Source: a bacterium (GTDB lineage Bacteria > UBA9089 > CG2-30-40-21 > SBAY01). From it: a stretch of 32,558 nucleotides of DNA. Made by a program: the position numbers and the translations under genes. Below are positions 1-32,558 of this stretch, piece by piece. The stretch is taken from assembly GCA_040755795.1 (NCBI GenBank), contig JBFLXS010000010.1, forward strand, positions 1-32,558, in the 5' to 3' direction. Within the stretch, counting starts at the first letter, position 1, and each line of letters opens with the position of its first letter. The notes under the pieces were generated by a model. The model was given only the letters and a program-made list of their open reading frames with translations, had not been told where the DNA came from and made no database searches.

Positions 1-5
1 AAACT

Positions 6-96
6 TGCCGATAAATATAATAGGTTCATCTCTTCTCCTCCTTTTAGAGATTTATTGTTTCTATTATCTTTAATCGGCAGGAGAAGAGATTTTTTT
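6..96 (+). terminator. Competing stem-loops with a T-tract (terminator/antiterminator-like)
   Basis: Seen: 28-39 (ATCTCTTCTCCT) is the exact reverse complement of 79-90, and seven T (90-96) follow, so this looks like an intrinsic terminator with a 39-nt loop. A second stem pairs 6-23 with 61-79, with one mismatch and one bulge. It uses the loop and one end of the first stem, so the two folds exclude each other. Inference: either the terminator of a gene left of the window, or an attenuator ahead of the propeller gene at 225. Bases 49-81 are repeated exactly as CRISPR spacer 15. The window edge hides the upstream context. Confidence 0.5.
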
Positions 97-192
97 AACA
101 AAATTTAAAAAATGACGAAACTATAGTCTATTATCTTATCTCCATATCACTCTTATCTCCTTATCCCCTTTCTTACACTTTTGATATATAGC

Positions 193-204
193 CTGAACGG
201 TTAC
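193..204. repeat. Solo end of the GTAACCGTTCAG repeat family
   Basis: The sequence CTGAACGGTTAC matches the right end of the larger palindromic elements at 1625, 3574 and 13978. No matching left end is seen nearby, so this is a decayed copy or a cut-off one. It lies 7 nt before the Shine-Dalgarno of the propeller gene. Confidence 0.55.
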
Positions 205-224
205 GAAAAAAGGAGGATAATAAA

Positions 225-1616
225 ATGTTAAAAAAGATAACTTTTATTAGTTTAATCATTGGGATAGTATCAGTCACATCCATAAGTCTGGCACAACAGC
301 CGATAGAGCAAGGTGGAACAGAGACAACCGCAGTTTTGGGTCCAACATTACAATTTGCTACTAAAACGGGTGGAGGGATTCAATCTGCCATTGCCTTAGG
401 GGATATAGATGGTGATGGAAAATTAGAAGTGGTTACCGCGGCTTTTGATCAGAAGGTCTATGTCTTAAATGAAGATGGAAGTTTATTGCCTGGCTGGCCT
501 GTAAAACTTCCTCAAGCATGGCTTTTACGCTCATCTCCGGCTATTGGAGATATTAATAACGATGGGAATTTAGAAATAGTCATTGGAACATTACAGGCAG
601 AGGTCTACGCCCTGGATAAAACTGGAAAACCCATTCCTGGTTGGCCAGTAAAGGTTATGGGAGGAGTCTTCTCCTCGCCTGCATTAGCTGATATTGACCA
701 GGACAAAAAATTAGAAGTGATAATAGGCTCAATAGGTGAAGGAGAGGCGATTTTTGTCTATGCCTTTAATGAAGATGGAACTATAGTTCCAGGTTGGCCG
801 GCAAAGATTAATGCTACCACCTGGTCTTGTGCCAGCATAGGGGATATAGATAAAAATGGTAAATTAGAAATAGCCGTAACGACTTGTAGTGGAAATACCT
901 ACCTCTGGGATAGAAAAGGGAAATTACTTTCTGATTGGCCTGTCCTCGCCGGTTTCTGGAATATTTCCTCTTCGGTATTTGGAAATATAGATAAGGATAA
1001 AAAATTAGAGATAATTGTAAGTTCAAATGATAAAAAGGTATATGCTTTTAAGACAAACGGAAAATTAGTTTCTGGCTGGCCTGTTCAAACTGACGGGGCG
1101 ATTACCTCTTCTCCTGCATTAGGAGATATTGATGAAGATGGAGAGTTGGAGATAATAATTGGTTCTGATGATAAAAAGGTATATGCCTTTAATGGAGATG
1201 GGAGTTTAGTTCAAGGTTGGCCTGTAACTTGCGCCGGAGGTATCCAGGCATCTCCTATCCTGGGAGATATTGATAAAGATGGGAAAATAGAGATAATCGT
1301 TGGTTGCACAGATAAAAATGTATATGCCTTCAATGGAGATGGAACATTGGTGACAGGATTCCCATTACAGACAGAAGGCGTCATCCTTTCAACTCCAGCA
1401 TTAGGGAATATCGATGATGATGATGGGCTTGAATTAATTGTGGCATCATTTGATTCAAAGGTATATTGTTGGGATTTTGGCCCAGGAACATACAATATCC
1501 CTTCAGATAAAGGGAAAAACAAGAAAAAGACAAATACCTCAAAATTATTACCCTGGCCAATGTTTCAACATGATGAATGTCATACAGGAACACATCCGGG
1601 CATATCCTCCAGATAA
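225..1616 (+). CDS. Secreted FG-GAP/VCBS-repeat beta-propeller protein
   Basis: No enzyme function can be assigned. Residues 1-23 form a signal peptide (KK, hydrophobic stretch, cleavage likely after SLA), so the protein is exported. The rest is about eight repeats of roughly 45 residues with the pattern GDIDxDGxLEIIxG...KVYAFNxDGxxxxGWPV. The DxDxDG loops are typical of calcium-binding FG-GAP/VCBS blades, and eight copies fit one closed beta-propeller. The C-terminus (around 440-463) is a short tail starting WPMFQHD, often seen at the end of such proteins. The ATG is preceded by GGAGG about 8 nt upstream. The gene stands alone between repeat elements. Proteins of this family usually sit on the cell surface and bind ligands or other proteins; that role is inference here. 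Confidence 0.85.
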   Translation: MLKKITFISLIIGIVSVTSISLAQQPIEQGGTETTAVLGPTLQFATKTGGGIQSAIALGDIDGDGKLEVVTAAFDQKVYVLNEDGSLLPGWPVKLPQAWLLRSSPAIGDINNDGNLEIVIGTLQAEVYALDKTGKPIPGWPVKVMGGVFSSPALADIDQDKKLEVIIGSIGEGEAIFVYAFNEDGTIVPGWPAKINATTWSCASIGDIDKNGKLEIAVTTCSGNTYLWDRKGKLLSDWPVLAGFWNISSSVFGNIDKDKKLEIIVSSNDKKVYAFKTNGKLVSGWPVQTDGAITSSPALGDIDEDGELEIIIGSDDKKVYAFNGDGSLVQGWPVTCAGGIQASPILGDIDKDGKIEIIVGCTDKNVYAFNGDGTLVTGFPLQTEGVILSTPALGNIDDDDGLELIVASFDSKVYCWDFGPGTYNIPSDKGKNKKKTNTSKLLPWPMFQHDECHTGTHPGISSR

Positions 1617-20678: not shown

Positions 20679-20959
20679 ACTATAGACATCTCAAGAGAAG
20701 AATATTTTGAGTTGTTAAAGGAAGTGTAGTTAAATAAAAAAGGGGATGCGTTTTTGATAGATTTAGCAACTACTGTTGAGAAACGAAGGGGAAATGAGTC
20801 GAAAGAGTTAACAGCATTGATGGAAAATTTACGGATGAATGGCAACCGCTTGATGAGTACCTGCTAAATGTTCTCGGACTTGTACAGAAATTTGCAGAGG
20901 AATTCGGAGCCGGGGAATGGACTTATCTACCAATAGAAATAAATCTGTGCCGAAAGTGA
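20679..20959 (+). pseudogene. Degraded coding fragments between Cas3 relic and cas3
   Basis: Two protein-like pieces with no proper start are visible. 20679-20729 reads TIDISREEYFELLKEV, in the same frame as the HD fragment but after its stop. 20798-20959 reads DGKFTDEWQPLDEYLLNVLG and on to GAGEWTYLPIEINLCRK, then a stop. I recognise neither. They look like remains of genes lost when the present cas operon replaced an older locus. The second overlaps the first codons of the longer cas3 frame. Confidence 0.4.
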
Positions 20960-20970
20960 GAATTTTCAAT

Positions 20971-23433
20971 ATGTTTTTAAACTTTGATTATATTGCTCAT
21001 CGCAGAAAAAAAGATGGAGAAATACACTGGCTTTCCCATCATCTCGAAGCGGTTTCAAAGAAAACAGGTGAATTTGCTTCAAAGATTGGACTTCAAAAGC
21101 AAGGTGAGTTAATAGGGCTTTTACATGATATCGGAAAAGCAAGTCAGGAATTTCAAGAATACATTAAAGTATCTGTTGGTCTTGTTAATCCGGACGAAGA
21201 TGAGTATGTGGATACGGTTGGATTAAAGGGAAAAGTAGATCACTCTACTGCTGGAGCACAATTGATCTGTCGTAATCTCGCAGAAAAAGGGTATGAAGCA
21301 TTGTTTGTTTCGCAAATTTTATCGCTTTGTATTGCTTCCCATCACTCAGGATTACTGGATTGTATTACCCCTGAAGGTATAGATACTTATTCAGAACGCA
21401 TGGGCAAAAGGGAAGAAAGATCGCATTTTGATGAAGTGCTCAAAAAAATTAGCAATAAAGCAAACATAATAAATCTGTTGCAGTCAGAAGAATTTTTGGG
21501 AAATGTTGTAAATCGATTCAAAACATTGAGAACCTCACTGGATTCTCAAGAAACACTATCTTTTAAATGTGGTCTGCTTGTACGGTTTCTATACAGTTGC
21601 CTTATTGATGCTGACCGATTGGATACGGCTGATTTTGAATCACCATCCTTAGCAAAAATGAGAAATCATGGTAAATATAAGAATTGGACTGTCCTAATAG
21701 AAAAATTAAACAAAAAGCTACAGCATTTTGACTCAAAAGGAATTAATGCCATACGGCAAGAAATATCAAAAGCCTGTTACGATTTTGCCGATAAGCCTAA
21801 TGGATTGTATCAGTTGACTGTTGCAACCGGTGGTGGAAAAACATTTGCCAGCCTGAGATTTGCTTTGCATCATGCGGATAAACACAAAATGGATAGAATT
21901 ATCTATGTATTGCCATATACAACTATTATCGACCAGAATGCCGAAGAGATACGCAAGGTATTAGAGGAAAAGGACGAAAATGGTAACTATCCAAATGATG
22001 TTGTATTAGAACACCACTCTAATCTTATGCCGGATAAAGAAACAGCCATGCAAAAAGTGCTCTCTGAAAATTGGGATGCACCTGTTGTGCTGACAACAAA
22101 TGTGCAGATTCTGGATGCTTTGTTTGGTTCTGGCACAAGAGGTGCACGTAGGATGCATCAGCTTGCAAACGCAGTGATTATTTTTGATGAAGTTCAAACT
22201 TTACCGGTGAAGTGTGTACACTTGTTTAATACAGCCATAAATTTTTTGGTAAATAACTGTAATTCTACAGTTGTGCTTTGTACGGCTACTCAGCCGCTTT
22301 TGGATAAAATCGAACCGAAATCAAGGGCACTGCCTATTACAAAAGAACAACAAATGGTTTCTGATGCAAGACAAATATTTGATGATTTAAAGCGGGTTGA
22401 GGTTTATGATAAGACAAAGGTTGGCGGATGGAGAAATGATGAAATAACAGAGCTTGCAAAAGAACAGGTTAATAAATCAAAAAGTGTTCTGGTGGTTGTA
22501 AACACAAAAACATCAGCCCGGGAAATCTATCAACAATGCAAACAGCTCGAACATATTGAAACATATCATTTAAGCACTCATATGTGTCCGGCTCATCGCA
22601 TGGTGGTGCTGGATCAGGTTAAAGCCTGTTTGCCTGACAAAAAACCTGTTATTTGTATCAGTACTCAGCTTATTGAGGCCGGTGTTGACATTTCTTTTGG
22701 CTCGGTCATTCGCTTTTTGGCAGGGCTTGATTCAATTGTGCAAGCAGCAGGCAGATGTAATCGTCATCGTGAACGATCAACTGGCGAAGCATTAATAATC
22801 AATCCGGCGAAAGAAAATATAGATATGATTGAGGATATTAGAATAGGTAAAGAGAAAACAGAGCGATTGCTAAATGAATTTAAAAACAGCCCCGAAAGAT
22901 TTGGGAATAACATCTTAAGCCCTGAGGCAGTGGAACAGTATTACCAGTACTACTTCTATCAAAGAAAGGATGAAATGAAATATTCTGTTACGGCTAATTC
23001 TTCTGTTGGGAGGGCTGATGATTTGTTTAATCTTTTATCGGTTAATTCCCTGTCAGTAGATGAGTATAAGCGAATCAAGAATAAGCCGCCTACGATTCCT
23101 TTAAGACAGGCTTTTATGACGGCTGCGAAGTCTTTTCAAGTTATTGATTCTATATCGCGTGGAATTATTGTGCCATATGGGAAAGAAGGAAAAGAGCTTA
23201 TCAATAACCTTTGTTCCATTCAAGGATTAGAAAAACAATATAAGTTAATTAGGCAAGCCCAGCGGTATTCGGTGAATGTGTTTCCGGATGTACTAAAAAG
23301 GTTACAAGAAGAGCAAGCTGTCTATGAAGCCCGGGAAAACTCAGGGATTTTGTACCTTGATGAACGGTATTATAGTGATGAATTCGGGTTAAACGAAATG
23401 CCGGTGAAAGACATGAGATTTTTAAATGTTTAA
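20971..23433 (+). CDS. cas3: CRISPR-associated helicase/nuclease Cas3, type I-C
   Basis: Effector that unwinds and degrades DNA recruited by the Cascade R-loop. It carries an N-terminal HD nuclease (His23/24, then LLHDIGK with His52-Asp53). The superfamily 2 helicase part has Walker A VATGGGKT near 284-291, DEVQ near 406-409, CTATQP as motif III and QAAGRCNRHRE near 591. From ATG 20971 it has 820 aa, a normal length. I prefer this start over the in-frame ATG at 20917 because type I-C Cas3 proteins begin close to the YIAH stretch, and the extra 18 codons overlap an older coding relic. No strong ribosome binding site is seen. cas5c follows after 17 nt. All key residues look intact. Confidence 0.95.
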   Translation: MFLNFDYIAHRRKKDGEIHWLSHHLEAVSKKTGEFASKIGLQKQGELIGLLHDIGKASQEFQEYIKVSVGLVNPDEDEYVDTVGLKGKVDHSTAGAQLICRNLAEKGYEALFVSQILSLCIASHHSGLLDCITPEGIDTYSERMGKREERSHFDEVLKKISNKANIINLLQSEEFLGNVVNRFKTLRTSLDSQETLSFKCGLLVRFLYSCLIDADRLDTADFESPSLAKMRNHGKYKNWTVLIEKLNKKLQHFDSKGINAIRQEISKACYDFADKPNGLYQLTVATGGGKTFASLRFALHHADKHKMDRIIYVLPYTTIIDQNAEEIRKVLEEKDENGNYPNDVVLEHHSNLMPDKETAMQKVLSENWDAPVVLTTNVQILDALFGSGTRGARRMHQLANAVIIFDEVQTLPVKCVHLFNTAINFLVNNCNSTVVLCTATQPLLDKIEPKSRALPITKEQQMVSDARQIFDDLKRVEVYDKTKVGGWRNDEITELAKEQVNKSKSVLVVVNTKTSAREIYQQCKQLEHIETYHLSTHMCPAHRMVVLDQVKACLPDKKPVICISTQLIEAGVDISFGSVIRFLAGLDSIVQAAGRCNRHRERSTGEALIINPAKENIDMIEDIRIGKEKTERLLNEFKNSPERFGNNILSPEAVEQYYQYYFYQRKDEMKYSVTANSSVGRADDLFNLLSVNSLSVDEYKRIKNKPPTIPLRQAFMTAAKSFQVIDSISRGIIVPYGKEGKELINNLCSIQGLEKQYKLIRQAQRYSVNVFPDVLKRLQEEQAVYEARENSGILYLDERYYSDEFGLNEMPVKDMRFLNV

Positions 23434-23450: not shown

Positions 23451-24170
23451 ATGGAAAAAGCAAATAAAGTAGAACTAAAAATCCAGGGTAAATACGCCCT
23501 TTTTACTGATCCGCTAACAAAAATTGGTGGAGAGAAATGTTCATATCATATCCCGACTTATGAAGCATTGAAAGGTGTATTAAGCTCGGTTTATTGGACA
23601 CCGACTATTGTGTGGATTATCGATTGCGTCAGGGTAATGAAACGGATTAGAACACAGACTCGTAGCGCAAAGCCTGTTGATTATAGCGGAGGCAATTCTC
23701 TGGCTATCTACACTTACCTTGCCCATGTAGAGTATCAAGTTCAGGCACATTTTGAGTGGAATATGAATCGCAAGGATATGGCAGGCGATAGGAACGAAAA
23801 CAAACATTATTTTGTTGCCAAGCGAATGATAGAAAAGGGTGGGAGAAGAGATATTTTTTTGGGTGCGAGGGAATGTCAGGGGTATGTAGAACCGTGTAGA
23901 TTTGGAGAAGGGATAGGCGACTATGATAATTATGGCGAAATCGCATTTGATTTAATGTTTCACGGCTTTGATTATCCTGACGAATTTGGGAAAGATGAAC
24001 TTCATGCCCGATTCTGGCGTCCTAAGATGATTGATGGCCAAATTGATTTTATTCGACCTGAAAAATGCACCATCCGAAAACTTGTAAGACCAATGAACGC
24101 CAATCCACCACAATCGGTGGGATTACAAGAGGAGGGATTATTCGATGAGCTGGATACAAAAACTGTATGA
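23451..24170 (+). CDS. cas5: Cas5c (Cas5d), crRNA-processing Cascade subunit
   Basis: In type I-C systems Cas5 replaces Cas6: it cuts the repeat at the base of its hairpin and caps the 5' handle of the crRNA. Seen: the N-terminal RAMP strand (VELKIQGKYALFTDPLTKIG), the SYHIPTYEALKGVLSSVYW block with Tyr48, and NENKHYF with Lys118-His119. Tyr48, Lys118 and His119 are in the positions expected for the catalytic triad described for Bacillus halodurans Cas5d. The length of 239 aa is typical. GGGAGG lies 6 to 8 nt before the ATG. Its last 26 nt overlap cas8c. Confidence 0.95.
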   Translation: MEKANKVELKIQGKYALFTDPLTKIGGEKCSYHIPTYEALKGVLSSVYWTPTIVWIIDCVRVMKRIRTQTRSAKPVDYSGGNSLAIYTYLAHVEYQVQAHFEWNMNRKDMAGDRNENKHYFVAKRMIEKGGRRDIFLGARECQGYVEPCRFGEGIGDYDNYGEIAFDLMFHGFDYPDEFGKDELHARFWRPKMIDGQIDFIRPEKCTIRKLVRPMNANPPQSVGLQEEGLFDELDTKTV

Positions 24171-26121
24171 AACATATGAAAACTGTCAATCGATGATTGG
24201 AAAGGTTGGCGAAGAAAATGAAGTGCCGCTTCTCCCAATTTGCCATACAATACAGAATGCGCAGATAAATATTGTTATCAACCTCTCCGGCGAATTTGTC
24301 AGGGCGGCAGTTGTGCCAAGATCAGAAGCAAAAACTATTATTCCAGCAACCGAAGAATCAGCAGGAAGATCTGGTAAAAAACCTGCTTGTTACCCTCTTT
24401 GCGATAAGTTGCAATATATCGCCGGAGATTTCCTTGAATTTGGTGGAGAAGTTACGGTTGGTTTTACAGATGATCCTCATGAACCGCATAATGCCTACGT
24501 TAAGCAATTGTCTGACTGGTGTGATTCTTCATATAAGCATCCAAAAGTATTAGCAATACTGGATTATGTGAAAAAAGGTACTGTTGTGGCTGATCTTGTC
24601 AAAGAAGGTATACTACATCTGCGACCAAGTACCAGATTGCTAATGAACCAATGGTCAGAGAATGATAATATCCTGGAAATATTTAAATTGCTTCCGGGAG
24701 GTGTTGATAATAAGGGCAAGAAGAAACCCTGGCAGGCTGATGCCTTTGTGCGATGGAGTGTAGAAGTTCCTGGTGACCCGCAGTCGTCCATTTGGACTGA
24801 TCCGACTATATGGGAATCATGGGTGAATTATTACGGAAGTGTAAAATCGGTCAAGGGGCTTTGCTATGTTACAGGAGAACAAAGATTCATGGCAAGCCAG
24901 CATCCCAAAAAAATTAGATACAGTGATGATGGTGCAAAAATTATCTCATCAAATGATTGGAGTGGATTCACTTTTCGAGGCCGATTCACAGACACAAAAA
25001 AACATAACACATATCAAACCTGTGGCGTTGGCTTTGAAGTTACTCAGAAATCGCATAGTGCTCTTCGTTGGCTTATCAGCCGTCAGGGATATCGTAGTGG
25101 AGATCAGGCTATTGTTGCTTGGGCTACATCCGGGATGTCAATCCCCAATCCTCTTGATGATCCTCTATCAATTTTGGGAGAAAAGAATCTTAAGAACGAT
25201 GATTGTGGTAGCATATTTACCGCGCAGAACCTTGCCATCAAGCTGAAGAAAAAAATAGCGGGATATAAATCTGACTTGGGAGATGCAAGTGGTGTTGTGG
25301 TTATGGGTCTTGATTCAGCAACACCGGGACGTATAGCGATTACTTTCTACCGTGAACTGACAGGATCGGAATTTCTTAGCCGTTTAGAAAAATGGCATGA
25401 TACCTGTGCCTGGATTCATGACTATGGATATAATCCTGAAACAAAAGGACACATTCGATTTGTCGGCGCTCCGGCACCCAAAGATATCGCTGAAGCGGCA
25501 TATGGAAGCAAGGTGGACAATAAATTAAAAAAAACAACAGTTGAAAGACTTTTGCCCTGCATTATTGATGGGCAGCAGATTCCTCGGGATATTGTTGATT
25601 CAGCAATTCGTCGGGCAAGTAATAGGGCAGGAATGGAGGAATGGGAATGGAATAAAACGCTCAGTATAGCCTGTGCGATTTTTAGAAAATTAAACGAAAA
25701 GGAGGGATATGATATGGCTTTAGACGAGAACAGAAAAACAAGAGATTACCTTTATGGAAGGCTGTTGGCATTAGCAGACAGTCTGGAGCAATGGGCTTTG
25801 AATGAGGCGAAGGAGGATAGACAGACCAATGCTGCGAGGTTGATGCAGAGGTTTGCGGATCATCCTTACAGCACCTGGAAGATAATCGAGCTTTCGCTTG
25901 CACCCTATAAAGCCCGGTTGAAAGCAAAATCTCAAAAAAGACAAGTATTGATTGATAAGGTGCATGCTATGTTTGAGCATCCTGATGATTACATCAGTGA
26001 CAAAAAATTAAGTGGTGAATTTTTGCTTGGCTATCATTGTCAGCGAGAATCGCTCAGACCAAAGGAGGTGGAAACAACAAATGAAAGCGAACCAGAAATG
26101 GTAACAAAAATTGATGAATAA
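24145..26121 (+). CDS. cas8c: Cas8c (Csd1), large Cascade subunit
   Basis: Large subunit of type I-C Cascade; recognises the PAM and recruits Cas3. In characterised systems an internal start also makes the small subunit Cas11c from its C-terminus, and the ATGs near 25704-25714 (following GGAGGGATATG) are a possible internal start here. The protein of 658 aa is longer than the common 570-610. Seen: the N-terminal WIQKLYETYENC, then VPLLPICHTIQNAQINI, SGRSGKKPACYPLCDKLQYI-like text, and VVMGLDSATPGRIAITFYREL in the middle. AGAGGAGGG lies about 8 nt before the ATG inside cas5c. cas7 follows after 19 nt. Confidence 0.93.
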   Translation: MSWIQKLYETYENCQSMIGKVGEENEVPLLPICHTIQNAQINIVINLSGEFVRAAVVPRSEAKTIIPATEESAGRSGKKPACYPLCDKLQYIAGDFLEFGGEVTVGFTDDPHEPHNAYVKQLSDWCDSSYKHPKVLAILDYVKKGTVVADLVKEGILHLRPSTRLLMNQWSENDNILEIFKLLPGGVDNKGKKKPWQADAFVRWSVEVPGDPQSSIWTDPTIWESWVNYYGSVKSVKGLCYVTGEQRFMASQHPKKIRYSDDGAKIISSNDWSGFTFRGRFTDTKKHNTYQTCGVGFEVTQKSHSALRWLISRQGYRSGDQAIVAWATSGMSIPNPLDDPLSILGEKNLKNDDCGSIFTAQNLAIKLKKKIAGYKSDLGDASGVVVMGLDSATPGRIAITFYRELTGSEFLSRLEKWHDTCAWIHDYGYNPETKGHIRFVGAPAPKDIAEAAYGSKVDNKLKKTTVERLLPCIIDGQQIPRDIVDSAIRRASNRAGMEEWEWNKTLSIACAIFRKLNEKEGYDMALDENRKTRDYLYGRLLALADSLEQWALNEAKEDRQTNAARLMQRFADHPYSTWKIIELSLAPYKARLKAKSQKRQVLIDKVHAMFEHPDDYISDKKLSGEFLLGYHCQRESLRPKEVETTNESEPEMVTKIDE

Positions 26122-26140
26122 AAAAGAGGAGGATAATTTC

Positions 26141-27037
26141 ATGGGAACTTTGAAAAACAAGATTGATTTTGCAGTGGTGTTTAGTGTGAACGGAGCTAAT
26201 CCTAATGGTGATCCATTAAATGGCAATCGTCCACGAACAAACTATGATGGGTTGGGCGAGTTGTCTGATGTCTGCATTAAACGAAAAATCAGGAATCGAT
26301 TGATGGAGATGAAGAATGATAAGGATGAATATTTATACAGTATTTTTGTTCAATCAGACGATAATAGGGTGGATAATTACCGTAGTTTACGGTCAAGGGC
26401 AGAAGGCGAATTAAAAAAGGCGATGAATGACGAAAACACTTTTAGAGAAGAGGCCTGTAAGAAATGGGTAGATGTTCGAGCTTTTGGTCAAGTGTTTGCG
26501 TATGGGAGCGAAAAGAAAGGTGGAGGAGTGTCTGTTGGAATTAGAGGTCCTGTCTCAATCCATTCTGCTTTTTCGGTTACGCCGGTAAGTGTGTCCAGCA
26601 TACAAATCACAAAAAGCGTTAGTGGTGAAGGAGACGGGGAGAAGAAAGCATCGGATACTATGGGGATGAAACATCGTGTTGATCATGGACTGTATGTATT
26701 CTACGGCGCAATAAATCCTCAGCTTGCCTCAAAAACAGGGTTTACCAATGAGGATGCTGCAGCAATAAAAAATGCACTCGAACATTTGTTTGACAATGAT
26801 GCTTCTTCTGCACGGCCTGAAGGCAGCATGGAACTATTAACCGTTATATGGTGGCAACATAATTGCAAATCTGGTCAATATTCGTCTGCTGTGGTCCATC
26901 GGGCATTAAGCGTTGATCTTAAAAAAGGGATAAGTGATCCGAAAAAGATTGATGATTATTCAATAAAGCTCAAAGATATTTCCGGATTAACGCCGGAAAT
27001 ATTTAATCCGAACAATATTGTCATTGAGAAAAATTAA
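26141..27037 (+). CDS. cas7: Cas7c (Csd2), Cascade backbone subunit
   Basis: Forms the filament along the crRNA spacer. I choose ATG 26141 because GAGGAGG lies 8 nt upstream; a longer frame from 26111 would read through that site. From there it has 298 aa, close to the usual 280-300. Seen: FAVVFSVNGANPNGDPLNGNRPR near the N-terminus, KKWVDVRAFGQVFAYG, GIRGPVSIHSAFSVTPV and MGMKHRVDHGLYVFYG, all typical of Csd2. Its stop shares one base with the cas4 start (TAATG). Confidence 0.95.
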   Translation: MGTLKNKIDFAVVFSVNGANPNGDPLNGNRPRTNYDGLGELSDVCIKRKIRNRLMEMKNDKDEYLYSIFVQSDDNRVDNYRSLRSRAEGELKKAMNDENTFREEACKKWVDVRAFGQVFAYGSEKKGGGVSVGIRGPVSIHSAFSVTPVSVSSIQITKSVSGEGDGEKKASDTMGMKHRVDHGLYVFYGAINPQLASKTGFTNEDAAAIKNALEHLFDNDASSARPEGSMELLTVIWWQHNCKSGQYSSAVVHRALSVDLKKGISDPKKIDDYSIKLKDISGLTPEIFNPNNIVIEKN

Positions 27038-27672
27038 TGTCATATTCATATACTGAAGACGATCTCCTTCCACTCTCGGCATTACAGCATCTATTGTTTT
27101 GCGAGCGTCAATGTGCGTTGATACATATTGAACAGGCATGGAGCGAAAACCTGTTTACTGCTGAGGGTCGGATTATGCATGACCGTGTTGATACAGGAAA
27201 GCATGAAACACGGCATAATATCCGGAGTGAATTCGCAGTGCCGCTTCGCTCGTTTCGGCTTGGATTAGCAGGTAAGGCGGATGTTGTGGAATTCCACCGG
27301 CAGGGTAATATGTGGCATCCCTTCCCTGTGGAATTCAAGCGGGGGCAACCAAAACAGGATAACTGCGATAGGGTACAGCTTTGTGCCCAGGCTATATGTC
27401 TGGAAGAGATGCTAAATGTCGAAATAGATGGCGGTGCCCTGTTTTACGGAAAGATACGACGAAGGCAGGATGTTGTGTTTGACCTGAATCTGAGGAAGGA
27501 AACAGAAGAGGCCTCTAAAAGATTACACCAGCTTATTGCATCGGGAATTACTCCTGCGCCGCAGTATTCTAAGAAGTGTGAAAGTTGCTCTCTGATTGAA
27601 GTGTGCCTTCCGAAAACTTGCAACCGAAATGGATCAGCAGGCAGGTATCTGACTAGGGCAATGGTGGAGTGA
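27037..27672 (+). CDS. cas4: Cas4, iron-sulphur PD-(D/E)XK nuclease for spacer selection
   Basis: Trims prespacers and selects those with a PAM, working with Cas1-Cas2. Seen: Cys22 in LLFCERQC, Asp82 in GKADVV, Glu99-x-Lys101 in PVEFKRG, and Cys181, Cys184 and Cys190 near the C-terminus. Together these give the four-Cys cluster and the nuclease site. The length of 211 aa is typical. The one-base overlap with cas7 and the 3-nt gap to cas1 show tight coupling. Confidence 0.95.
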   Translation: MSYSYTEDDLLPLSALQHLLFCERQCALIHIEQAWSENLFTAEGRIMHDRVDTGKHETRHNIRSEFAVPLRSFRLGLAGKADVVEFHRQGNMWHPFPVEFKRGQPKQDNCDRVQLCAQAICLEEMLNVEIDGGALFYGKIRRRQDVVFDLNLRKETEEASKRLHQLIASGITPAPQYSKKCESCSLIEVCLPKTCNRNGSAGRYLTRAMVE

Positions 27673-27675
27673 ATA

Positions 27676-28707
27676 ATGAAGAGACATCTAAATACATTAT
27701 TTGTAACAACCCAGGGGGCGTATCTTGCCAAAGAGGGTGAAACCGTAGTTGTAAAGGTTGATAAAGAAATCCGGTTGAGGGTGCCTGTTCATACAATAGG
27801 CGGTATTGTCTGTTTTGGCCAGATAACCTGCAGCCCATACTTGATGGGCTATTGTGCTGAGCAGAATGTTGCCATAAGTTTCCTTACCGAGTACGGACGC
27901 TTTCTGGCAAAGGTTCAAGGCCCTGTTTCAGGCAATGTACTGCTGCGACGGGAACAGTACCGGCGTGCGGATGATGAAGCAGGGTCTGCAAATATCGCCA
28001 GGGCTGTCCTGACAGGAAAAATTGCTAACTGCAGAACGGTCTTGCAGCGATTTCTAAGGGACCACCAGGAGAAATCAAATACCGATGGAGTTAGCCATGC
28101 ATCAAAACTTTTAAGTTCATCGCTACGACGAATACAGAACGAGAATTCGCTTGATGTTATCAGGGGAATTGAGGGGGATGTGGCACATACATATTTTAGC
28201 GTTTTTGATCATCTCATTACCTCCCAAAAAGAGGAGTTTTCTTTTTTGCAGCGAAACCGAAGGCCACCTCTGGATAAGGTAAACTGCTTGCTGTCGTTTT
28301 TGTACACACTCCTAATGCATGATGTCCGTTCTGCACTTGAAGTGGCCGGGCTTGACCCTGCGGTCGGTTTTCTGCACAGAGACCGTCCGGGACGCTATGG
28401 GCTGGCACTTGATATGATGGAAGAGTTCAGGCCATTCCTTGCTGACAGACTGGCACTCTCCCTGGTAAACCTCAGTCAGATCCAGGGAAAAGGATTTGAA
28501 GAAAAAGAAAACAGTGCGGTGCTTATGAATGATGATACAAGAAAAACTGTACTGATTGCTTATCAGAATCGTAAACAAGATGAGATTATGCATCCGTTTC
28601 TTGATGAAAAAGTAACCATCGGCTTGCTCTTTCATATTCAAGCATTACTGCTTGCACGGCATTTGCGTGGGGATTTGGATACTTATCCGCCTTTTATCTG
28701 GAAGTGA
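27676..28707 (+). CDS. cas1: Cas1 spacer-acquisition integrase
   Basis: Catalyses insertion of new spacers at the leader-proximal repeat. Seen: the three metal ligands Glu166 (IEGDVAHTYF), His234 (GFLHRDRPGRYGLALD) and Asp246/Glu249 (LALDMMEEFRPF). The length of 343 aa is typical for type I-C. It starts 3 nt after the cas4 stop, and cas2 follows after 9 nt. The active site looks intact, so adaptation should be possible. Confidence 0.96.
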   Translation: MKRHLNTLFVTTQGAYLAKEGETVVVKVDKEIRLRVPVHTIGGIVCFGQITCSPYLMGYCAEQNVAISFLTEYGRFLAKVQGPVSGNVLLRREQYRRADDEAGSANIARAVLTGKIANCRTVLQRFLRDHQEKSNTDGVSHASKLLSSSLRRIQNENSLDVIRGIEGDVAHTYFSVFDHLITSQKEEFSFLQRNRRPPLDKVNCLLSFLYTLLMHDVRSALEVAGLDPAVGFLHRDRPGRYGLALDMMEEFRPFLADRLALSLVNLSQIQGKGFEEKENSAVLMNDDTRKTVLIAYQNRKQDEIMHPFLDEKVTIGLLFHIQALLLARHLRGDLDTYPPFIWK

Positions 28708-28716
28708 GGTAATGTA

Positions 28717-29004
28717 ATGTTTGTGATAGTCAGTTATGATGTTTCTACGGAAGCTTCGGGACAGCGTCGCTTACGCAGAGTGGCAAAAGCCTGTCAAGAC
28801 TATGGACAGAGGGTTCAGTACTCTGTTTTTGAATGCATGGTTGATCCTGCCCAGTGGACGGTTTTGCGTCAAAGGTTGCTTGATGAGATCGATCCTGAAA
28901 AAGATAGCTTGCGATTTTATTATCTTGGCTCTAATTGGAAACGCCGCATAGAGCATGTTGGTCTAAAAAAATCGCCTGATCAGGATGGTCCGTTGATTGT
29001 TTGA
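28717..29004 (+). CDS. cas2: Cas2 adaptation subunit
   Basis: Small protein that holds two Cas1 dimers and sets spacer length. Seen: the N-terminal strand FVIVSYDVS with the conserved Asp8, the [21 protein letters not shown] stretch and [15 protein letters not shown] at the C-terminal side. The length of 95 aa is normal. It is the last cas gene; the CRISPR leader begins right after its stop. Confidence 0.96.
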
Positions 29005-29186: not shown

Positions 29187-30130
29187 GTCGCCCCCCATGC
29201 GGGGGCGTGGATTGAAACTGGAAAACCAAATGTCTCTTTTAGAAATTTTGCCGTCGCCCCCCATGCGGGGGCGTGGATTGAAACTTAGATGATTTTTTAT
29301 ATTTTTCCCTTACGGAGTCGCCCCCCATGCGGGGGCGTGGATTGAAACTATAATAGTATCATTACTTCCTACGCTTTGCCAAGTCGCCCCCCATGCGGGG
29401 GCGTGGATTGAAACAGAATAGAAAGGAGGAAAGAATGAAAAAGTTATTGTCGCCCCCCATGCGGGGGCGTGGATTGAAACAGAAGCCAGTCAGGAGATAG
29501 ATATTTCCTGGCGTCGCCCCCCATGCGGGGGCGTGGATTGAAACTTTCGTGCCATCCTCTAATAAATAACCCGTCTTAGTCGCCCCCCATGCGGGGGCGT
29601 GGATTGAAACTTTCGTGCCATCCTCTAATAAATAACCCGTCTTAGTCGCCCCCCATGCGGGGGCGTGGATTGAAACAGGAAGAATTGAAACTATATCAAA
29701 AAAGATTAGGTCGCCCCCCATGCGGGGGCGTGGATTGAAACCTTGTAATTCTTCAAGGTTAGATGCTCCTGACAGTCGCCCCCCATGCGGGGGCGTGGAT
29801 TGAAACTACTAGGTTAAATGACAGAAAGCAAGACAGCGTCGCCCCCCATGCGGGGGCGTGGATTGAAACCTGCACCAGAGGGAAAAACCTATTTTCCTTA
29901 CCGTCGCCCCCCATGCGGGGGCGTGGATTGAAACTAGACCACGCCAGAAGACAACATTGTCTCAATCGTCGCCCCCCATGCGGGGGCGTGGATTGAAACC
30001 ATAAAACTCAAGCCTTACAATCTGATTATTCCGTCGCCCCCCATGCGGGGGCGTGGATTGAAACCTGTTAAGTATATTTTTTTTGTCGCTTGTATGCCGT
30101 CGCCCCCCATGCGGGGGCGTGGATTGAAAC

Positions 30131-30163
30131 GATTTATTGTTTCTATTATCTTTAATCGGCAGG
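30131..30163 (+). other. CRISPR spacer 15, identical to window positions 49-81
   Basis: All 33 bases (GATTTATTG... to ...AATCGGCAGG) match 49-81 on the same strand. The three bases before the target, 46-48, are AGA rather than the TTC expected for type I-C, which may explain tolerance. On the other strand, TTC lies one base outside the target (83-85 read as GAA), as if the spacer had been taken in reverse and shifted by one. Confidence 0.95.
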
Positions 30164-30454
30164 GTCGCCCCCCATGCGGGGGCGTGGATTGAAACCACCT
30201 AAACCCTAAACTTTTCGCTTTTTCTCTAGTCGCCCCCCATGCGGGGGCGTGGATTGAAACTCTTACTATCTCATTTGAGCAATTTCAGCAGATGTCGCCC
30301 CCCATGCGGGGGCGTGGATTGAAACTTAATAGCCGTATCCCACGATTGATATTTCATTGGTCGCCCCCCATGCGGGGGCGTGGATTGAAACTCATTTATC
30401 ATCTCCATAAGTAAATTTCAATGTCGCCCCCCATGCGGGGGCGTGGATTGAAAC

Positions 30455-30486
30455 TATCATCATAGCTGACATCAGCTATGATGATA
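30455..30486 (+). other. CRISPR spacer 20, a near-perfect palindrome
   Basis: The 32-nt spacer is 15 nt (TATCATCATAGCTGA), two central bases CA, then the exact reverse complement. The crRNA guide could fold on itself completely. Confidence 0.97.
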
Positions 30487-30585
30487 GTCGCCCCCCATGC
30501 GGGGGCGTGGATTGAAACATAAGAAATTTGTAATTGAGGAAAATCGGTTTAAGGTCGCCCCCCATGCGGGGGCGTGGATTGAAAC

Positions 30586-30621
30586 AAGAAAAATTTGGAA
30601 GTCAAGCGGTTCATTTGACAG
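30586..30621 (+). other. CRISPR spacer 22, overlaps spacer 40 end to end
   Basis: It is 36 nt and ends ...GGTTCATTTGACAG. The last nine bases, ATTTGACAG, are the first nine of spacer 40 (31767-31800). Confidence 0.8.
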
Positions 30622-30810
30622 GTCGCCCCCCATGCGGGGGCGTGGATTGAAACACCCTGAACTCACCTAAAAATACTCTCTGAGCCGTCGCCCCCCATGC
30701 GGGGGCGTGGATTGAAACTCAATATGCTCGATTACCGCAGGGATTTTCGCCGTCGCCCCCCATGCGGGGGCGTGGATTGAAACCCTTCATTTCTTGTCTC
30801 CTTGTTTTAA

Positions 30811-31053
<243 letters not shown>

Positions 31054-32558
31054 TGATACACTAATAGGACATCAATTAGCGTCGCCCCCCATGCGGGGGC
31101 GTGGATTGAAACTAATTTTGCAGGGAAAGTTACTGTTATCTTTGTTGTCGCCCCCCATGCGGGGGCGTGGATTGAAACAATCTCGGGCTGAAACCTCTGA
31201 TATTACTATTCGTCGCCCCCCATGCGGGGGCGTGGATTGAAACAATCTCGGGCTGAAACCTCTGATATTACTATTCGTCGCCCCCCATGCGGGGGCGTGG
31301 ATTGAAACTTGCTGTTGGCGCAGCTGTCTCTGCGATGACGATGTCGCCCCCCATGCGGGGGCGTGGATTGAAACAGATAATCAAGAAGCCGATTGTGATT
31401 TTTCAAAGTCGCCCCCCATGCGGGGGCGTGGATTGAAACACACTGATTGGAAAATAGAGAAGATAGGAAAAGGTCGCCCCCCATGCGGGGGCGTGGATTG
31501 AAACTTTTGACAAAAGGCATATATTTGATTTTTCCAAAGTCGCCCCCCATGCGGGGGCGTGGATTGAAACACTATAGAAAAAACAGAAGAGGATTATAGC
31601 TTGGTCGCCCCCCATGCGGGGGCGTGGATTGAAACTAAAAATAGAAGAAGTTAGAAAAGATGCAAAGAGTCGCCCCCCATGCGGGGGCGTGGATTGAAAC
31701 TTTTTAAAAGTGGAATATTTTTTCTACGAATGAAGTCGCCCCCCATGCGGGGGCGTGGATTGAAACATTTGACAGGACAGGATAACATTGAGGCAAGACA
31801 GTCGCCCCCCATGCGGGGGCGTGGATTGAAACTTTGCAACGACAAAGTTGCACGAAAAATTGGAAGTCGCCCCCCATGCGGGGGCGTGGATTGAAACTTT
31901 TTTTAAGCGAGGTAACAGCCCACCAATGAAAGTCGCCCCCCATGCGGGGGCGTGGATTGAAACTTACCTCTTAAACCAGATAAGAAACCAGATAGGGTCG
32001 CCCCCCATGCGGGGGCGTGGATTGAAACTTGTAACTCCTTTATTGTTAAATTAGCAATTAGGTCGCCCCCCATGCGGGGGCGTGGATTGAAACTGACCTA
32101 GAATTTGAAGCAATTAAAAAAGTATGGGTCGCCCCCCATGCGGGGGCGTGGATTGAAACTACCAAAATTATAGCAAGTGATGTAGCAAAAAGCTGTCGCC
32201 CCCCATGCGGGGGCGTGGATTGAAACTATGCTTTGCTCTGCTCCTGCTCTTAAGGTTATCGTCGCCCCCCATGCGGGGGCGTGGATTGAAACAAGATTGC
32301 CAGACAATGTGGGCAGAGCGAGGGCGTCGCCCCCCATGCGGGGGCGTGGATTGAAACGGGCAAAAGAGATTAAGAAGCAGAGGGAAGATGGTCGCCCCCC
32401 ATGCGGGGGCGTGGATTGAAACAGAAACGAAATGATAGGCAGGTAAATTAAATGGCAGAGTCGCCCCCCATGCGGGGGCGTGGATTGAAACACAATTTAA
32501 TCTGGCGTGGAAGATGCCATATTGGGCGTCGCCCCCCATGCGGGGGCGTGGATTGAAA

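Follow-up and report, generated by a model that had tools for sequence, protein, structure and literature searches.

Self-matching spacers are a known feature of CRISPR arrays: surveys quoted by PMC6990116 place them in 7-18% of CRISPR-bearing genomes, and in one survey mentioned there about half of the perfect self-matches hit mobile elements. It is recognised that such spacers can derive from transposons and prophages, and in the type I-F system of Pectobacterium atrosepticum a natural self-match is tolerated through mutation of the PAM (PMC6990116). As reviewed in the same paper, the self-matches of Stern et al. (2010) combine a perfect match to a transposable element, intact cas genes and a non-permissive flank. 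The type I-C locus described here shares these properties, and nothing essential separates it from those cases; its particular features are that the target lies in the leader of a transposase gene and that the genome is metagenome-assembled. It is also like the P. atrosepticum case in that a natural self-match appears to be tolerated through a non-functional PAM, although the subtype is a different one. All in all, the match has the look of a commonplace self memory of a mobile element that the cell tolerates, of a kind already known.

The window, that is, the entire stretch of 32,558 nucleotides that was analysed, is one complete contig (G000:C10:1-32558, hereafter C10) of a 771-contig genome bin, and its position 1 is an assembly end. 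On the + strand it carries seven uninterrupted genes in the order cas3-cas5c-cas8c-cas7c-cas4-cas1-cas2, identified by profile matches as cas3 (I-C) at 20917-23433, cas5c at 23451-24170, cas8c at 24145-26121, cas7c at 26111-27037, cas4 at 27037-27672, cas1 at 27676-28707 and cas2 at 28717-29004. All are full-length by profile, and the gene order is that of type I-C. The near-full-length profile matches bear out the initial annotation, which had described intact cas genes beside a self-match. The CRISPR array (29187-32558, + strand), whose leader side adjoins cas2, is made up of 52 repeats and 51 spacers (49 different sequences) and continues past the contig end, which truncates the last repeat. 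The repeat is 32 bp long with the 3' end ATTGAAAC, and the spacers measure 31-37 nt, as fits type I-C.

Several features of the arrays may be recorded here. Repeat-spacer units are duplicated in two places, spacer 6 being equal to spacer 7 (29545-29644) and spacer 31 to spacer 32 (31179-31276). Spacers 27 (30915-30947) and 46 (32160-32194) have about 20 bases in common in opposite orientation and thus probably derive from overlapping sites of one invader. Spacer 20 (30455-30486) is a near-perfect palindrome (TATCATCATAGCTGA...TCAGCTATGATGATA). In addition, a solo mini-array, consisting of a single spacer and two repeats that share the I-C type of the main array (the first one degenerate), is found on another contig (G000:C171; L103 305-402), away from any cas gene seen.

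Spacer 15 (30131-30163, + strand) is identical at 33 of 33 bases to positions 49-81, likewise on the + strand (BLAST E 1e-14), and this perfect match outside the array in the same genome makes it a self-matching spacer. Two matches to the 33-mer occur in the window, versus 0.00 expected from 100 dinucleotide shuffles, and a third occurrence lies on contig C39 (C39:47-79), again at a contig start. The self-match claimed in the initial annotation was thereby confirmed at full identity, the shuffled windows yielding no match. Its further suggestion of a terminator-like sequence at 49-81 did not hold: no terminator was predicted at these positions, a search for RNA families over window positions 1-700 gave nothing near gathering score, and the site proves to be the leader of an insertion sequence.

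Positions 1-126 (- strand) belong to an IS701-family-like insertion sequence, of which they form the transposase-proximal end, cut short by the contig edge. Read in minus-strand order, this end comprises a terminal inverted repeat (CTATAGTTTCGTCATTTT, 109-126), a leader, a Shine-Dalgarno-like AAAGGAGG (37-44), an ATG and the first transposase codons (MNLLYLSAS..., 1-29), which are still open at the contig end and read MNLLYLSASFY in the copy on contig C173 of a second genome of the same genus (G001). The protospacer of spacer 15 (49-81, + strand) falls within the leader, shortly before the Shine-Dalgarno sequence and ATG of this transposase. An exact copy of the end occupies C39:1-124, the identity extending over window positions 3-127 (125 bases) at the start of that contig. 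Diverged copies (77-80%) are present at the ends of contigs C404, C186 and C20 and in the interior of C21, and related ends lie by transposase reading frames in G001, where homologous sequence on C66 is joined to a 207-residue reading frame with a DDE_5 match. The element on G001 C173 is nearly complete and frameshifted, and two pieces of it match IS701_3. Terminal inverted repeats (CTATAGTTTCGTCATT and CTGAACTTTCGTCATT, the latter at the opposite end, on C67) are a further likeness to the IS701 family (NF049999, NF033540). The element differs from that family in that the transposase pieces fall below the curated cut-offs (against NF049999, E 7.8e-16 and 2e-39, each below the 170-bit cut-off) and in its target-site duplication. 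The interior of the element is absent from the bin, and the transposase of the C10 copy is presumed from these relatives.

The bin points to residence of the element in at least two places. The terminal 127 bases of contig C67 are the opposite end of a related element, 92% identical to the element on G001 C173. TTTGA ends the flank of C67 and begins that of C39, and joining the two flanks over a single TTTGA gives a continuous open reading frame resembling Fn3 repeats; because of this duplication and the open joined frame, C67 and C39 are, from their sequence, most simply taken as the two sides of one insertion. The duplication is of 5 bp if the element ends after CTATAG, while a T shared beyond that end permits a 4-bp reading. 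IS701 elements duplicate 4 bp of target, and the element is therefore filed as IS701-like only. The C10 copy, at the contig start and upstream of an FG-GAP gene, lies within a MITE-like repeat whose right part spans 127-206 (+ strand) and recurs across the genome as about 40 near-identical hits. This MITE copy is broken exactly at the end of the insertion sequence (base 127), whereas other copies continue uninterrupted. Hits of the MITE-like repeat are often at contig ends.

The flanks of the protospacer offer a likely reason for its tolerance. On the crRNA-sense strand its 5' flank is CTTTTAGA (AGA), and on the other strand TCTCTTCT precedes CCTGCC. The PAMs catalogued for type I-C are CTN, CCN, CTT, TTC, TTN and TTT (PMC8482600); AGA is outside this list, so that the site lacks a PAM known to make self-targeting competent for interference. 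The proposal in the initial annotation that survival may rest on AGA in place of TTC is thereby supported as likely, and resident copies would be ignored by Cascade since their protospacer carries no TTC-type PAM. PAM inference from outside protospacers gave nothing significant, either with spacer 15 and four other spacers against viral contigs or with 48 joined spacers against phages, where one weak match of 38 bases (87%, E 0.04) was left out of the inference.

A second self-match has the same property. Spacer 19 (30392-30422, + strand) is identical at 31 of 31 bases to C45:7812-7842 (- strand), and its target (L080 813-843) lies where a chromosomal gene has its ribosome-binding site and start; the product of this gene resembles a site-2 protease-type (M50) peptidase, and the equivalent position in G001 matches at 94%. 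The match is flanked by GAT, so that the PAM is missing in both of the two self-matches. Spacer-versus-genome searches, in which 40 candidates were scored and the unscored spacers together with part of the rest were rerun, returned no self-match other than those of spacers 15 and 19.

The position of the protospacer in a transposase leader also invites comparison with elements whose leaders control their own transposase. In IS10 and IS50, leader hairpins hide the transposase start, and only read-through transcripts carry the upstream strand. Two helices can be drawn on the - strand of the present leader. Helix 1 (28-90) pairs 80-90 with 28-38 and covers the Shine-Dalgarno sequence and AUG, and helix 2 (7-78) pairs 61-78, within the protospacer strand, with 7-23 in the early transposase codons. 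Across five diverged but related leaders of this IS group, with the structure written from one of them, helix 1 is paired in 98% of cells with three pairs changed on both sides, and helix 2 in 89% with four. Neither helix is nested in the other, and both are stable when folded singly (-14.8 and -12.9 kcal/mol, respectively); they therefore probably alternate and may form a two-state lock on the transposase start, for which covariation among so few and related sequences, read on the structure of one of the five, is suggestive only. As in IS10 and IS50, the Shine-Dalgarno sequence and AUG would be paired with an upstream strand expected in read-through transcripts only, and by analogy the lock would be present in transcripts that read through from outside and missing from those started internally. 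Unlike in those elements, a second, non-nested covarying helix involves the early codons.

Taken together, the likely source of spacer 15 is an IS701-family-like insertion sequence resident, or later resident, at at least two sites of this genome, and the spacer is probably a PAM-less and neutral self-match. A mobile-element origin, one of the alternatives in the initial annotation, is the best supported because the target is the end of an insertion sequence. Under this reading the element, already or subsequently resident, would have supplied the spacer, Cascade would pass over the resident copies for want of a TTC-type PAM, and the spacer would persist without effect. One may argue that the match is an assembly error, as positions 49-81 lie at a contig end beside two repeats, but this is very improbable. 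Where contigs end in the insertion sequence or in the MITE, they have 119-127 bases in common (mostly 122-127), a pattern as from a de Bruijn assembly, presumably with k = 127, broken at unresolved repeats; since such a k is larger than the MITE part (80 bases), it can span the passage from insertion sequence across the MITE into unique sequence. The misassembly at the window start considered in the initial annotation is accordingly unlikely, the contig beginning at a repeat and overlapping others as expected of the assembler, and even with a wrong join the 33-mer would also be in the bin at C39. An inactive system, or an anti-CRISPR encoded elsewhere, would also permit survival, and activity cannot be judged from sequence; if the system were silenced or inhibited, the self-match would be harmless whatever its PAM. 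This is nonetheless unlikely, given that the cas genes are intact and that both self-matches are PAM-less, which fits what an active system would leave after purging PAM-bearing self spacers, although two cases are few.

Capture from the insertion sequence could have given a PAM-less spacer by two routes, namely faulty processing or inversion at uptake, or acquisition from a variant element that did carry a PAM. In the former, rather doubtful route, the spacer would come from the insertion sequence itself, flipped and one base off, using a PAM on the opposite strand. TTCT does stand before the protospacer on that strand, and loss of Cas4 is known to give rise to spacers that lack a correct PAM and do not function (PMC6519985), but cas4 looks intact here, and in spacer 19 the TTC is at another displacement, 2 bases into the spacer. 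The initial annotation had suggested such a reversed and slipped event; the opposite-strand TTC one base off is indeed there, but about 25% of random genome positions have a displaced or flipped TTC no more than 3 bases from an edge, versus 2% for an exact PAM. The latter route, a tentative possibility, holds that a variant of the element or a mobile carrier had the proper PAM and the resident copies do not. The leader does vary among IS families of this genus, but TTC is absent at this place in C404, C21, G001 C66 and C4, the viral contigs contain no exact match to spacer 15, and window positions 1-126 had no match in phages or plasmids; a related 29-mer pattern was likewise absent from the genome contigs. 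It is also conceivable, but extremely improbable, that crRNA 15 with Cascade binds the leader without cleavage and represses the transposase in addition to any lock that the element's leader itself provides. The target does lie in a transposase leader, and repression is among the roles of self-matching spacers discussed in PMC6990116. Against this, a perfect full-length match is expected to license cleavage once bound, and there is neither a PAM for binding nor evidence of conservation. Nothing speaks positively for the regulatory role proposed in the initial annotation, and stable binding of Cascade is made less likely by the lack of a PAM.

The case carries a lesson of method: where a "self-target" lies close to the end of a contig, one should ask whether it is a collapsed repeat. 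An effect of crRNA 15 on the insertion sequence would make this a rare instance of CRISPR control of such an element, but nothing here shows it. With capture from the resident insertion sequence as the likely origin of spacer 15, the locus adds one more natural array that holds a perfect, apparently PAM-less memory of a resident mobile element.
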